A stretch of 64,000 bases of DNA, taken from assembly GCF_038022665.1 (NCBI RefSeq), contig NZ_CP150629.1, forward strand, positions 1,904,480 through 1,968,479, in the 5' to 3' direction. A program made the position numbers and the translations under genes. Below the pieces are notes generated by a model. The model saw only the letters and a list, made by a program, of their open reading frames with translations. It searched no databases and was not told the origin of the DNA. The DNA is from Methanolobus sp. WCC4 (GTDB lineage Archaea; Halobacteriota; Methanosarcinia; Methanosarcinales; Methanosarcinaceae). How positions within the stretch are numbered: position 1 is the first letter of the stretch; each line of letters begins with the position of its first letter. Shown here one piece after another: positions 12,009-59,425 of this stretch.

Positions 12009-12164
12009 TGGATGTTAATTTATTGAACATGATCATTTAAAAAAGAATCGAGTTCCTTACAAAAAAGATATTTCCTGATATCAGTTATCCCAATATCAGT
12101 TATCTCAATACATTAGAGAATAGATATTTTCATAGAATAGGTGAGCAGTCCATATCATGAATTT

Positions 12165-13394
12165 CTATAGGGGCAGGCGCTTCACCCTTCTGTACTTCTG
12201 CACAAGTTCATGGATCGATCTTTTGTAGAATGACTCTCCATCTATCTGTTTTGTGATCTTCCATTCTATATCTTCTTCGATCTCGTTCCTGTTCATTTCT
12301 CCCAGCTTGACAGGTGTCATGTCGGCCCAGGGGATGTATTCCCATTTCCAGAGCTCATGGTTCGTATCAGACTCGGCCATTGCATGGTTGGATGTGTTTA
12401 TGAAGATCACAGGATGTTTCCTGTTCTTGAAATAGTATTTGATCTTATGCTCAGGGATATTTTCTCCCGAATCTCCATGTATCGAATCATATTCCAGGTC
12501 ATATTTTCCACTGTAGATGTTGTGGAACACGAATGTATCGTTCTTTTCGTCCTGTTTGAGCCTTATCCTGAATGTCTCGATGTCTGCTGTCCTTCCATAC
12601 CGATAGTAACGATACAGCTCATAGATATTGTTGAGATACAGGTTCTTTCTGAGCTGTTCATTATTGAAGATAAGGGAGACTTCAATTTCCTTGTAGCCTT
12701 TTGCGGTCTTACTTTCAGAACAGTGGATCTCACGAAGGAAATTCTTCATACAATCCACTGCGGGCTGGTAGATGATCGGAATGATCCGGTCATCCTGCCC
12801 AGTGTCTTTAATATCTGTTGCTTCAAAGTGGTTATCACTTTTTGTTGGGATATCTATCTCTGTGCAAAGGGAATTGTACAATCTGTACACATTAGATGAT
12901 CCAATATCCTGTCCATCCTTTGCCCATTCCCATATCCAGCAATTGTCATTGAACTGGAAGACCCATCTCTTTTTCGGACCCTCAATGACATTACGACCTT
13001 TCTCGTTCTCCCTTGCCGTATAGATATCGGTCTTTGGTTTGTAGACCCTTTTCAGATCAAACCCTATCATTCTTCTGACACTTACGAACTTGTGCATGAA
13101 TTCGCTGTCAATTTCCTCTTCTCTTCTGACCACGACTTTCAATTCATCATCAGATGCCCTTGCAAAACTTATATTGCAGTTCTTGTAGTCCCAGACATCA
13201 ACCTGTCCGGTCCAGAAGAATTTTTTAGTCCTGCGGGCCCATTTACCTTCCGTGTCCCATCTTTTTTCCATGTAGGAGAACCAGACACCTTCTGCGCCTA
13301 TGAGTTCAGGTGTTGTTTCTGATATGATTACATCTTTGTTGTTTGATATATTTTCAGAAACCATATTTACATCTTCATGCATTTTACCTTCCAT
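12165..13394 (-). CDS. Hypothetical protein, tryptophan- and charge-rich
   Basis: The 409-residue protein starts at an ATG preceded by GGAAGGAG. I recognise no family. It has no signal peptide or membrane helix, and is rich in aromatic and charged residues (KRWVFQFNDNCWIWEW, NHELWKWEYIPW), suggesting a beta-rich soluble fold. It sits 117 bases downstream of a small membrane protein gene on the same strand and close to a STAND ATPase module, in what looks like an accessory stretch. Its base composition is like the neighbours. Nothing in it points to a specific activity. Confidence 0.7.
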   Translation of the reverse strand: MEGKMHEDVNMVSENISNNKDVIISETTPELIGAEGVWFSYMEKRWDTEGKWARRTKKFFWTGQVDVWDYKNCNISFARASDDELKVVVRREEEIDSEFMHKFVSVRRMIGFDLKRVYKPKTDIYTARENEKGRNVIEGPKKRWVFQFNDNCWIWEWAKDGQDIGSSNVYRLYNSLCTEIDIPTKSDNHFEATDIKDTGQDDRIIPIIYQPAVDCMKNFLREIHCSESKTAKGYKEIEVSLIFNNEQLRKNLYLNNIYELYRYYRYGRTADIETFRIRLKQDEKNDTFVFHNIYSGKYDLEYDSIHGDSGENIPEHKIKYYFKNRKHPVIFINTSNHAMAESDTNHELWKWEYIPWADMTPVKLGEMNRNEIEEDIEWKITKQIDGESFYKRSIHELVQKYRRVKRLPL

Positions 13395-13511
13395 TGCTCC
13401 TTCCTCTCATTATTTGTCAGTTGTTGAATTATCTCCCTAAAAGGAAAATGGGACTATTATCAATTTAACAGAACGATGATAGTTTCCTGTCAGCAGTTTC
13501 CATCTATCGAT

Positions 13512-13952
13512 TCAGGTCTTTGATTTTTCGATGTATTTGATAAGATCATGCAGTGGTTTTGTTCCCCCTCCGATGGTGAGTCCTGTTACTATTGTATCGA
13601 TCGTAGGATTGGCCGATACTTCAAGCAGATCCAGGAATCTGATATTCAGTAGAAAAGCTATAATGATTCCCACAGTGGATGCAATAATTAAAGTTCTAAA
13701 CACTATCTTGCTCTCAAATTTTGTCTTATCTTTCAGAAGTTTCTCTATATCATTATATAGGTCGTCCTTTTTTTTGTTATCATGAGTTTTTTCTATCTCT
13801 TTTTTTAAATTATCGATCCTTATATCAGCTGTCTTTGTTGCTGCTTTTGCATCATCATGTCCCGGGCATATCTTGCTTATCAGGGACTCGGTGATTCGCT
13901 CTACAGCCTGAGCAGCAACATAGAACACAGCAAAGGCAGTTACAACGGACAA
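13512..13952 (-). CDS. Small membrane protein with coiled-coil segment and GGGTKPLHDLI motif
   Basis: The 146-residue protein has an N-terminal hydrophobic segment (VVTAFAVFYVAAQAV), a charged helical stretch of about 45 residues (TADIRIDNLKKEIEKTHDN), a second membrane helix (RTLIIASTVGIIIAFLL) and the C-terminal motif GLTIGGGTKPLHDLI. The same ending is familiar to me from small uncharacterised bacterial membrane proteins, but I cannot name the family. It lies upstream of the 409-residue unknown gene and may share its transcript. It could be an effector or anchor for a neighbouring accessory system; that is speculation from position. Confidence 0.65.
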   Translation of the reverse strand: MSVVTAFAVFYVAAQAVERITESLISKICPGHDDAKAATKTADIRIDNLKKEIEKTHDNKKKDDLYNDIEKLLKDKTKFESKIVFRTLIIASTVGIIIAFLLNIRFLDLLEVSANPTIDTIVTGLTIGGGTKPLHDLIKYIEKSKT

Positions 13953-55387: not shown

Positions 55388-55703
55388 ATCGGTTATTTTG
55401 CAGATTTCCTACCCAAATAGAATTATTTAGTGTGCATACCGTCCAAACTCAAGTATCAATATTCTAATAAATCATGCGCTTCTTTCATTAAATGTGCTAG
55501 ATGTCAATGGGCAAAAATGATATTAAAGAAGACTTTTTGTAGAAACTATCAAATAGCAGACTAACGAATTTAGTTTATTACTCAATCTAGGACAACATAA
55601 GGTTCAATCATTTAGGGAAAATTATGCTATACAATTCTTGTACGTTTGTAGTGGAATCATCTTACATCAAAGATACATTTAAATATAGTAATACATTATA
55701 AAA
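55388..55703. other. A+T-rich intergenic region before the asparaginase-like gene
   Basis: About 316 bases without a gene. Base composition becomes markedly more A+T-rich here and stays so through 57510. TTTAAATATAGTA near 55678-55690 is a likely TATA box about 25 bases before the start codon, implying a leaderless mRNA. Confidence 0.5.
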
Positions 55704-56792
55704 ATGGTAATGACTAAATTAAGGATAATATACACTGGTGGAACTATTGGTGGTAAATTTAGTGATTCCGGTGATATAGGTCATGATCTTACAAGAAAAA
55801 CATTTATAAGTACTTTGTCTAATAAGTATTCTTCTCTTGAAGACTATTTGAAAAAAAAAGATGTAAGTTTATCTTTTGACACACCAATTAGAGAATTTAG
55901 TGAAAATCTAATTCCTTCTGATTGGTCGAAGTTAGCAAAATCAGTTGATAATGCTATTAATGAAGGAATTGATTCTATAATAATTGCGCATGGAACTGAT
56001 ACTATGTGCTATAGTTCAGCTGCTTTATCTTTTATGCTTCAAGGTATTAAAATTCCAGTAGTATTTACTGGATCAAATATTCCTTTAGAAGGAGAAGGGA
56101 CTGATGCTGTTACTAATATGCATGATGCATTTAGAGTAGCATTGGATAAAAGGTTTAAAGGAGTTTTTTTAGTATTTTCAGGGATACCTGACAAACCTAG
56201 TGACATTCACCTTGGTTGTAGGGTCAGAAAGAAAAAATTTTATGATAACTGCTTTGATTCCATTAACACAAATAAAATTGGAATACTTAAAAAGAATATA
56301 TTTTCATCAAATTATAATATAAATATTGTTAATGATAAGTTGTTCAATAGTGTTATTGAAGCAAATGATAATAAGGATTATAATTTGATTAATGCATTGG
56401 ATGAAAAAATTTCTTTTTTCAAAGTTTATCCCGGTTTTAATCCAGATTTGATAAGTTATGTTGTCGAGAAAAAAACAAAAGCTATTATTTTAGAGCTTTA
56501 TAATGCGGGCACAGGATGCACACGAAATAATCATTCTTTAATTCAATCTATTAAAAAGGCAAATGATATTCCAGTATTTATTACTTCTCAGCATGAAGGT
56601 AATGTATTAATGGACACTTATAAGACCTCTTTAGAATTAAAAGAAGCTGGAGCTATTCCTTTAAGGGATATGATTACAGAGGCTGCAATTCCAAAATTGA
56701 TGTGGATATTAAAACAAAAAACTAATAAAGATGAAATTATAGACTTGATGCTTACTAATGTTTCTGGAGAAATAGATTGTTATGAGCATTAA
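55704..56792 (+). CDS. Type I L-asparaginase-like enzyme, probably acquired
   Basis: The 362-residue protein has the asparaginase catalytic elements: RIIYTGGTIGG with both Thr residues, IIIAHGTDTM with Thr-Asp, and a Lys in ALDKRFKGVF at the place of the catalytic lysine. The C-terminal domain has LELYNAGTGCTRNNHSLIQS. It is closest in length to cytoplasmic type I enzymes and GatD, but has no gatE partner and lacks the GatD N-terminal domain. The gene is far more A+T-rich than its neighbours and is coupled by an 11-base overlap to a membrane protein with a V4R-like domain. The natural amide substrate is open. Confidence 0.8.
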   Translation: MVMTKLRIIYTGGTIGGKFSDSGDIGHDLTRKTFISTLSNKYSSLEDYLKKKDVSLSFDTPIREFSENLIPSDWSKLAKSVDNAINEGIDSIIIAHGTDTMCYSSAALSFMLQGIKIPVVFTGSNIPLEGEGTDAVTNMHDAFRVALDKRFKGVFLVFSGIPDKPSDIHLGCRVRKKKFYDNCFDSINTNKIGILKKNIFSSNYNINIVNDKLFNSVIEANDNKDYNLINALDEKISFFKVYPGFNPDLISYVVEKKTKAIILELYNAGTGCTRNNHSLIQSIKKANDIPVFITSQHEGNVLMDTYKTSLELKEAGAIPLRDMITEAAIPKLMWILKQKTNKDEIIDLMLTNVSGEIDCYEH

Positions 56793-57510
56793 GACATGTT
56801 TGCGTGATATTTTTTTTAAAATAGATTCATCTGAAAGAACAAATACTGTAATTATGATTTTGCAAATAATTGCAACACTTTCTGCATTCTCATATTCCTA
56901 CTTTAAAGATACACAAATAGAATGGATTGGAATTTTTCCTTTTATTTTTGCATTTTGTCAATTTACAGTTCTAGCATATTTAATTATTGTTGGTATTGTT
57001 TCGGGAAAGTACCGCCCAATAAAACTGAGATTAAACAGAACTACTGGAATGCTTTATGACAATACAACAAATTTTAGAAATATTGCGTTAAGAGACGAAA
57101 CATTAAATCTTATTTTAGATAAGTTTTCAAAGGAGGACGCTTACGACTTGGGAAAAGAAGTAGGTAAGAACTTTTGTATAAACTTTGTGAAAGAACTACA
57201 CCGCAAGGGAACTGAATTGAGTATAGACGATAAACTAAAAAAATGGATTGAATATGATTCAAGCTCTGGTATAGGTAAATTTCAAATTATAGAACACTCT
57301 AATTCTCCAATACACATAAAGATTAAGATTTCTTCTCCATTTATTGGTGATTGCCCTATTAGTAAAGAACCAAATAGTCGATGCAAATTTTTACTTGGAT
57401 ATGTTGAGGGTTTAATTTCCCAGTTATATTCTACTGAACTCACGCTAGGTTCAGGATGTTCGTACAACTCAAGTCCTTCACATTGTACTTTAACTTTGAG
57501 CCCTAAATGA
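56782..57510 (+). CDS. Membrane protein with V4R-like sensor domain
   Basis: The 242-residue protein has two membrane helices (TVIMILQIIATLSAFSYSYF and FPFIFAFCQFTVLAYLIIVG), then a cytoplasmic region. Its C-terminal part (FIGDCPISKEPNSRCKFLLG, VEGLISQLY, GSGCSYNSSPSHCTL) matches the end of V4R (4-vinyl-reductase) domains, including the conserved cysteines. V4R domains bind small hydrophobic ligands or metal and often act as sensors. The 11-base overlap with the asparaginase-like gene shows that the two are made together. Confidence 0.68.
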   Translation: MSIKTCLRDIFFKIDSSERTNTVIMILQIIATLSAFSYSYFKDTQIEWIGIFPFIFAFCQFTVLAYLIIVGIVSGKYRPIKLRLNRTTGMLYDNTTNFRNIALRDETLNLILDKFSKEDAYDLGKEVGKNFCINFVKELHRKGTELSIDDKLKKWIEYDSSSGIGKFQIIEHSNSPIHIKIKISSPFIGDCPISKEPNSRCKFLLGYVEGLISQLYSTELTLGSGCSYNSSPSHCTLTLSPK

Positions 57511-57544
57511 GCAAAGAACATGTTCCAATAACATATATAAGTTT

Positions 57545-58201
57545 TTAAACCCTGTCACCGAATAGTGCAGAACCTATACGGACCATGGTGGCCCCTTCCT
57601 CTATAGCAACCTTATAGTCACCGGACATGCCCATGGACAAATTCTGAATGTCGATATTATCATATTTTCCCTCAGTTTCAGTCTTCAGTTCATCAAAGAG
57701 GGCTTTCATCTTTTTGAAATAAGGACGTGCCTGCTCTGGTGGAACATAAGGGGGAATGCACATGAAACCTGTGACCCGGATATTCTTGAGTTCAGCAATG
57801 TCCTGCAATGCCTGTTCTATTTCCTTTATTTTGAAGCCGTGTTTCTGTGGCTCATCGCCTATGTTGACCTGAAGGTAGATCTCCTGGACCTTGTCTGCTT
57901 CCCTGGCTCTCTTGTCGATCTCCTGTGCGATCTTGAGCGAGTCTACCGACTGGATCACATCGAAGAACTGAACGGCTTTTTTGACCTTGTTTGTCTGCAA
58001 ATGTCCTATCAGGTGCCTTGAAGATGGGAGGAGGTCATCGGATTTTCCTTCATACTCCTGAACCCTGTTCTCACCAATTATCGTAGCTCCGGCTTTGATA
58101 GCCTCGTTTATCCTTTCAGGGTCCACGGTCTTTGTGACACAGACCAGTTCAGTATTTCCAAGTTCTTGCAAGACCGCGGTAATATTTTCTTTTACTGACA
58201 T
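57545..58201 (-). CDS. YggS/PLPBP-family PLP-binding protein
   Basis: The 218-residue protein has the alanine-racemase-like barrel: LVCVTKTVDPERINEAIKAG with the PLP lysine, IIGENRVQEYEGK, LIGHLQTNKVK, LQVNIGDEPQKHGF and LSMGMSGDYKVAIEEGATMV. It binds PLP and keeps the cofactor and amino acid pools in balance; no enzymatic activity is established for the family. Single gene, with GGGA before the ATG. Confidence 0.9.
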   Translation of the reverse strand: MSVKENITAVLQELGNTELVCVTKTVDPERINEAIKAGATIIGENRVQEYEGKSDDLLPSSRHLIGHLQTNKVKKAVQFFDVIQSVDSLKIAQEIDKRAREADKVQEIYLQVNIGDEPQKHGFKIKEIEQALQDIAELKNIRVTGFMCIPPYVPPEQARPYFKKMKALFDELKTETEGKYDNIDIQNLSMGMSGDYKVAIEEGATMVRIGSALFGDRV

Positions 58202-58372: not shown

Positions 58373-59425
58373 ATGGGGAATTCTATCACTCAGGAAAAAG
58401 ATGTTCTCAGAAAAAGATTCAATGATATCCTTAAAGGGAAAGGTACTGACATTCCTCCTGTAGGTACTGTCACAACCTCACCTGTACTGGAACTAATGGA
58501 TATCATCGGTGCAGAACGACCGGAAGCAGACAGAGTGCCTGAGAAAATGGCACAACTTACATCCTCATTACATAGTGTTTCCAAATTCGAGATAATACGT
58601 TTTCCTTTTGATGTAACCGTTCTCGCTGAAGCACTTGGCTGTGGAATAGACCCCGGTACCAAAGCAAGGACTCCTGCCGTGGTGTCTCATCCTTTCAAAG
58701 ACAGGTTCAAAGAACAAGCTGACATGCTCGATGTACATGAAGAACTTCTGGATAAAGGAAGGATCCCGGTAGTCCTGAGAACGTGCGAGATCTTAAGAGA
58801 AAATAAAGAACTGAATGCACCCATCGTAGCAGGTATTGAGGGACCTGCTGACCTTGCAGCTTCTATTTGCGGGATCAAACCGTTCCTTAAATGGACAATT
58901 AAAAAACCAGAACTTGTGACAGCCATTGTAAACAGATGTGTTGATGCCTGCATATTGTATGCTAATGCATGTCTGGACCATGGCGCTGACGCGGTGGTGA
59001 TCGCGGATGCGACTTCTTCTCCGGATATGATGGGACCGGATGCTTTCAGGAAATTGATGAAAAATGAATATTCAAGGCTCGCTGATAGTATACAGGGAAA
59101 TTGTATCAGCCATATATGTGGGCGGACGGACAACATCATCCCTGACCTTCTGGACTGTGGTTTCAATGCATTGAGTATCGAGGAAAATGTGGGTGATCTG
59201 AGACACATTATTGCTCAGGCTCACGAGGAGAATATAGCTGTAATAGGTAATATCTCCACATCAGATACCCTGATAAATAAAAGTGCTGCCGAAGTAAAAA
59301 GTGAAGCCCGAAAGTGTCTTGAAAGCGGTATAGACATACTTGCTCCCGGGTGTGGGATCGCACCGGAAACACCTTTGAGGAATCTTCTGGCAATGGCAGA
59401 GGCACGGGATGAATATATCTCTTAA
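58373..59425 (+). CDS. Methylcobamide:CoM methyltransferase (MtaA/MtbA family)
   Basis: The 350-residue protein has the uroporphyrinogen-decarboxylase fold and the zinc ligands of CoM methyltransferases: His247 and Cys249 in ISHICG and Cys327 in LAPGCGIAP. It moves a methyl group from a methylated corrinoid protein to coenzyme M, feeding methanol- or methylamine-derived methyl groups into methanogenesis. The start codon is close to a TATA-like stretch, so the mRNA may be leaderless. No corrinoid protein or substrate-specific methyltransferase gene is adjacent, so whether it is MtaA, MtbA or another paralog cannot be told. Confidence 0.88.
   Translation: MGNSITQEKDVLRKRFNDILKGKGTDIPPVGTVTTSPVLELMDIIGAERPEADRVPEKMAQLTSSLHSVSKFEIIRFPFDVTVLAEALGCGIDPGTKARTPAVVSHPFKDRFKEQADMLDVHEELLDKGRIPVVLRTCEILRENKELNAPIVAGIEGPADLAASICGIKPFLKWTIKKPELVTAIVNRCVDACILYANACLDHGADAVVIADATSSPDMMGPDAFRKLMKNEYSRLADSIQGNCISHICGRTDNIIPDLLDCGFNALSIEENVGDLRHIIAQAHEENIAVIGNISTSDTLINKSAAEVKSEARKCLESGIDILAPGCGIAPETPLRNLLAMAEARDEYIS

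Follow-up and report, generated by a model that had tools for sequence, protein, structure and literature searches.

A pair of overlapping genes, coding for an enzyme of the asparaginase/GatD fold and for a predicted membrane protein which carries a V4R-family domain, was identified in the window, i.e. the whole stretch of 64,000 nucleotides that was analysed. Pairing of V4R and asparaginase domains was seen in four lineages, the window pair included. The reading that we prefer, with a confidence that stays just short of even, is that of a compact sensor-effector module acquired by horizontal transfer, in which the V4R protein would be the sensor or regulator and the asparaginase the effector, stopping growth by amino-acid starvation in a conflict or anti-virus role. 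A wider proposal, which we put forward more tentatively and with some doubt, is that of an undescribed immune or conflict system across archaea and bacteria: its effector would be a V4R-gated asparaginase depleting asparagine/glutamine, and its versions would be extended by a second asparaginase, a KGGVGR ATPase, a HerA or a RelA/SpoT synthetase.

The features of the pair and of its surroundings are listed below, with the data on which each of them is based.

55397..57557, no strand: variable slot around the pair (comparison with the congener G117)
55704..56792, plus strand: gene for an asparaginase/GatD-fold amidohydrolase, 362 aa (ORF, Pfam, catalytic columns, model)
56782..56792, plus strand: overlap of 11 bases between the stop of the enzyme gene and the start of the partner gene (sequence)
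56782..57510, plus strand: partner gene, 242 aa, two-helix membrane hairpin and V4R-family domain (ORF, hhalign, Foldseek, homologues in L040, L069 and L103)
56827..57000, plus strand: membrane helices predicted at aa 16-44 and at aa 48-73 (model helices, hydropathy)
57076..57498, plus strand: V4R-family domain, aa 99-239, with C201, C226 and C235 (hhalign, Foldseek, cysteine positions)

The 11-base overlap, which agrees in length and coordinates with the preliminary description of this DNA, probably reflects translational coupling of the two genes. The same description had pointed to a composition far richer in A+T than the surroundings, and this was borne out: the G+C content is 0.289 for the enzyme gene and 0.309 for the partner gene (29-31%), against 0.41 for the window, and at third codon positions it is 0.18 and 0.22, respectively. 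In the flanking genes, the corresponding values range between 0.39 and 0.47, and between 0.37 and 0.55 at third positions. The congener G117 features the same flanking genes, with an unrelated 695-bp stretch in place of the pair; homology to its DNA breaks off at about position 55396 and returns at about 57558, so that the pair occupies a variable slot. The host genome is complete (2.85 Mb) and would be that of a methanogen of the Methanosarcinaceae, to judge by gene content and relatives; the partner gene is present in only one of the 186 genomes of the order, being absent from the 185 relatives. From these sequence comparisons, the pair looks like an accessory and rare insertion, acquired recently and horizontally. 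The ten neighbours scanned did not include any recognised part of an established defence system.

A TATA-like ATTTAAATATAG was noticed by eye at positions 55677-55688, 16-27 bases ahead of the ATG of the enzyme gene; its closeness to the ATG would suggest that the transcript of the pair is nearly leaderless. Further downstream, a gene for a URO-D-type methyltransferase, MtaA/MtbA-like (58373-59425, plus strand), could not be found between the corresponding neighbours of G117, and the slot beyond the YggS-like gene is therefore variable too.

Both asparaginase domains are present in the enzyme, which matches the Pfam families PF00710 (Asparaginase N, 9.9e-41) and PF17763 (Asparaginase C, 2.3e-20). 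As had been claimed earlier, the catalytic residues are kept: T14, T98, D99 and K176 are intact, as seen in an alignment comprising 48 asparaginase sequences. The structural model (pLDDT 88) finds its top PDB matches in GatD (1zq1) and in archaeal L-asparaginases, the best fold match being GatD of the archaeal GatDE tRNA amidotransferase (PDB 1zq1, 2d6f; E 3e-30, 31% identity), with which the catalytic Thr/Thr-Asp/Lys set is shared. Unlike GatD, however, the enzyme scores below the cut-offs of both GatD models (223.9 against 310 bits and 217.5 against 324 bits), its matches begin at profile positions 77 and 64, the N-terminal GatD region being missing, and the flanking genes that were examined include no GatE. 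At another place (C1:2160794-2161648), the same genome carries a separate GatD-like gene, of 432 aa. The family cut-offs, the missing N-terminus and the separate gene rule out that the enzyme is a copy of GatD or the partner in a GatDE pair, a point on which the preliminary description was right.

Fold and catalytic residues are also shared with the type I L-asparaginase (AnsA; TIGR00519); unlike AnsA, the enzyme remains below the cut-off of this family (220.5 against 260.5 bits), and its long branch falls outside the AnsA-type rows. The type II cut-off is likewise missed, and the alternative of an ordinary asparaginase, considered at the outset, did not hold. In the tree, where its branch measures 3.1-3.2 changes per site, the enzyme is weakly sister to GatD (88/86). 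It is not grouped with the asparaginase 2 clade of the bacterial loci described below, although such a grouping is not rejected (p-AU 0.09-0.10). By sequence, the enzyme is best classified as a fast-evolving protein of the asparaginase/GatD fold, other than GatD. Loss of the lid tyrosine was dropped as a hallmark of the enzyme, because other asparaginases in the alignment are devoid of it too.

The partner gave no direct match in Pfam, NCBIfam, PADLOC or PDB sequences, and PF02830 matched neither the partner nor the V4R domain of the Bipolaricaulota locus L040, even at E 10. L040 was reached by the asparaginase scan, and one of its neighbour genes matches the C-terminal half of the partner (1e-10); the first V4R-domain profile consisted of these two rows. 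Matches to this profile were found in 18 other genomes among 393 of Halobacteriota: all five archaeal matches checked are PF02830 V4R proteins, and of the weakest matches L066, at least, seems to be spurious. When the partner domain was compared with an archaeal V4R alignment by using hhalign, a probability of 98.2% was obtained (E 4e-14), and of 98.7% (E 2e-16) with a five-member profile. The partner model shows a mean pLDDT of only 62.7, higher over parts of the V4R domain; its top Foldseek matches are the V4R domains of MopR, PoxR and DmpR, H-NOX and TRAPP subunits (probability 1.00), and a BFVD search with the same model returned nothing convincing. According to the profile searches, the profile-profile comparison and the predicted fold, the C-terminal domain is assigned to the V4R/H-NOX/TRAPP superfamily, and the V4R likeness suspected beforehand was reinforced by these profile and fold comparisons.

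The partner contains seven cysteines, three of which (C201, C226 and C235) stand in V4R positions, in agreement with the cysteine-bearing domain initially described. Their spacing, 25 and 9, resembles that of the zinc ligands of DmpR, C151, C177 and C185, spaced 26 and 8, where the metal site is made of three Cys and one Glu (C151, E172, C177, C185; PMC7264223). The counterpart of the Glu was not located in the partner. A metal site is plausible for the partner domain, yet not general across its relatives, since the middle cysteine of the trio is missing in the locus L103. The two membrane helices previously proposed are also predicted here, the second being strongly hydrophobic (hydropathy up to 2.46) and the first near threshold (1.67). 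Because the V4R proteins of the three bacterial loci show no clear membrane segment, the two-helix hairpin is a feature of the archaeal version, where it probably serves as an anchor. The partner is therefore like the V4R domains of DmpR, MopR and PoxR and the archaeal PF02830 proteins in profile, fold and cysteine spacing; unlike the PF02830 V4R proteins, it is missed by PF02830, predicted to be membrane-anchored, paired with an asparaginase and devoid of a DNA-binding or AAA output domain.

In L040, the gene order is asparaginase 1, a short ORF, a KGGVGR ATPase-V4R fusion, asparaginase 2 and a HerA-like ATPase. Asparaginase 1 is AnsA-like, with a C-terminal extension, and scores above the TIGR00519 cut-off; the KGGVGR ATPase scores above its own NCBIfam cut-off, and the closest matches of the HerA-like ATPase are anti-phage HerA models. 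The locus L069 (Acidobacteriota, genome G874), composed of a V4R protein, asparaginase 1, asparaginase 2 and a RelA/SpoT synthetase, was detected from the V4R profile alone (E 5e-18), and the next two genes are the asparaginases. The opposite strand codes for a ParA-like ATPase and, next to it and to the operon just described, for a TIR protein that carries another V4R-like domain, weaker than the first (12106-13701, minus strand; hhalign 93.6%). L103, on an IMG/VR contig, includes an ATPase-V4R protein, asparaginase 2 and asparaginase 1; it was detected from the asparaginase 2 profile alone, and a V4R domain ends the preceding gene (E 4e-28). The same contig also contains a phage terminase large subunit gene (L104, 308-2575, plus strand), adjoining the housekeeping gene gatA. 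The L103 operon may lie beside a provirus.

Since L069 and L103 were each found from one half and then showed the other half, they represent an independent test of the link; by a rough estimate, chance would produce a V4R/asparaginase neighbourhood at a rate well below 1%. Between the Bipolaricaulota and Acidobacteriota loci, identity is 53% for asparaginase 1 and 57% for asparaginase 2, and among all three loci it ranges between 44 and 53% and between 57 and 63%, respectively; this similarity, despite the differing phyla, points to horizontal spread. As for recurrence of the pair in other genomes, the combination of V4R and asparaginase was found in three other lineages, whereas the exact form, a two-helix V4R protein with a single asparaginase, was found only in this genome. 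The window enzyme is not placed with the bacterial asparaginase 2 clade and is weakly nearer to GatD, so that the window pair, in which the ATPase, the second asparaginase, HerA and RelA of the bacterial loci are also lacking, might represent a pairing of these families that is separate from theirs.

These data bear on the possibility that the two genes are chance neighbours, namely an isolated asparaginase, or a divergent copy of GatD, and an unrelated membrane V4R gene, both carried by A+T-rich incoming DNA. The 11-base overlap, the like composition, the intact catalytic residues and the reappearance of the domain pair in three further lineages, of which two were reached from one half only, argue against such an explanation, which we regard as very improbable, even considering that the exact arrangement was seen once and that the enzyme, on its long branch, groups weakly with GatD.

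In the sensor-effector module, the V4R protein would be held in the membrane by its two-helix hairpin, with the V4R domain in the cytoplasm, and would hold or activate the asparaginase-fold effector. Once triggered, the enzyme would act as a hydrolase on free asparagine, on free glutamine or on both, or else on a related amide; given the reaction of the asparaginase family, depletion of asparagine/glutamine would be the natural consequence. Growth would then be arrested through amino-acid starvation, an outcome which would fit a conflict or anti-virus role. We infer in this way the complex, its membrane topology, ligand and substrate, the growth arrest and the antiviral benefit; the sensor role, the coupling and the phage defence are suggested by family membership and gene neighbourhood. 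It is only the neighbours in L040, L069 and L103 that suggest a function in defence, as they are of conflict type: KGGVGR ATPase and HerA in L040, RelA/SpoT and TIR-V4R in L069, where the RelA/SpoT gene fits the theme of growth arrest.

Many asparaginases are catabolic, and several plasmid asparaginases adjoin transport and catabolic genes. The pair might accordingly serve metabolic regulation, the V4R protein sensing a small hydrophobic ligand or a metal and tuning an asparaginase/glutaminase for nitrogen supply or amide detoxification, in line with the action of V4R domains as ligand sensors in DmpR (PMC7264223). The bacterial loci, however, link the asparaginases to KGGVGR-type ATPases, HerA, RelA/SpoT and TIR, rather than to transporters or aspartate metabolism, two different asparaginases per operon would be odd for supply, and the window pair is an insertion of a rare, accessory kind; metabolic regulation is thus considered unlikely, though worth weighing.

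Roles could also be exchanged, the two-helix V4R protein being the effector, by membrane disruption, and the asparaginase fold acting on another amide, for example to synthesise or degrade a signal or to deamidate a macromolecule. Membrane effectors with two helices are common in defence systems, GatD is an example of the same fold in a non-asparaginase reaction, and residues S66-E67 of the window enzyme resemble GatD in the alignment. We give this exchange little credence, as a pore would not be a shared function, the three bacterial V4R proteins having no clear membrane segment.

No description of a link of asparaginase with V4R was found in Pfam, NCBIfam, PADLOC or the open literature searched, in agreement with the earlier statement that no described system was known to hold this combination. 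The same literature yielded no account of an asparaginase as a defence effector, and neither protein of the pair matches a listed defence protein of PADLOC 2.0.0 at E 10. The ingredients of the bacterial loci (KGGVGR ATPases, HerA, TIR, RelA/SpoT) are those of a known kind of conflict locus: such an ATPase carries V4R in L040, and TIR-V4R adjoins the asparaginase operon in L069. Unlike KGGVGR ATPase/TIR loci, the window pair includes neither ATPase nor TIR, and the asparaginase takes the likely effector place. The effectors known from defence systems act by depleting NAD, nucleotides, nucleic acids or membrane integrity, and V4R is known mainly as a sensor of aromatic ligands and metals. If the enzyme is a starvation effector, it would be of a new kind; if the module switches on the asparaginase, amino-acid starvation would become a direct effector strategy, and V4R would be added as a trigger domain. 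Even if the function is not defence, a ligand-sensing domain is recurrently linked, in a manner previously undescribed, with a medically important enzyme family.

The genome scan used asparaginase alone as query, so that the reported recurrence is a lower bound and the true spread is larger. The partner was not found in plasmids, in the remaining genomes of the order, in 296 Bacteroidota genomes or, with the partner sequence as query, in viral contigs, and 100 Bipolaricaulota genomes yielded only L040; the asparaginase 1 alignment had no match in viral contigs, and no annotated V4R gene was present in the inspected neighbourhoods of plasmid asparaginases. Two candidates were rejected as further pairs: L076 is an ordinary V4R gene with no asparaginase, and in L044 an asparaginase 1-type enzyme stands alone, no V4R partner being found in the locus. 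A KGGVGR-type ATPase in a Sinorhizobium plasmid bears the annotation of a TIR protein. Another context was seen in a Vibrio plasmid, where the gene for a 527-aa asparaginase-domain protein (L047, 5998-7581) forms a row together with those for a C45 peptidase and hypothetical proteins. A fourth V4R relative, with no asparaginase alongside, is a 708-aa protein, apparently an AAA+-type ATPase, ending in a V4R-family domain (L075, 9757-11880, minus strand), located between genes for secreted proteins; V4R may serve several systems.
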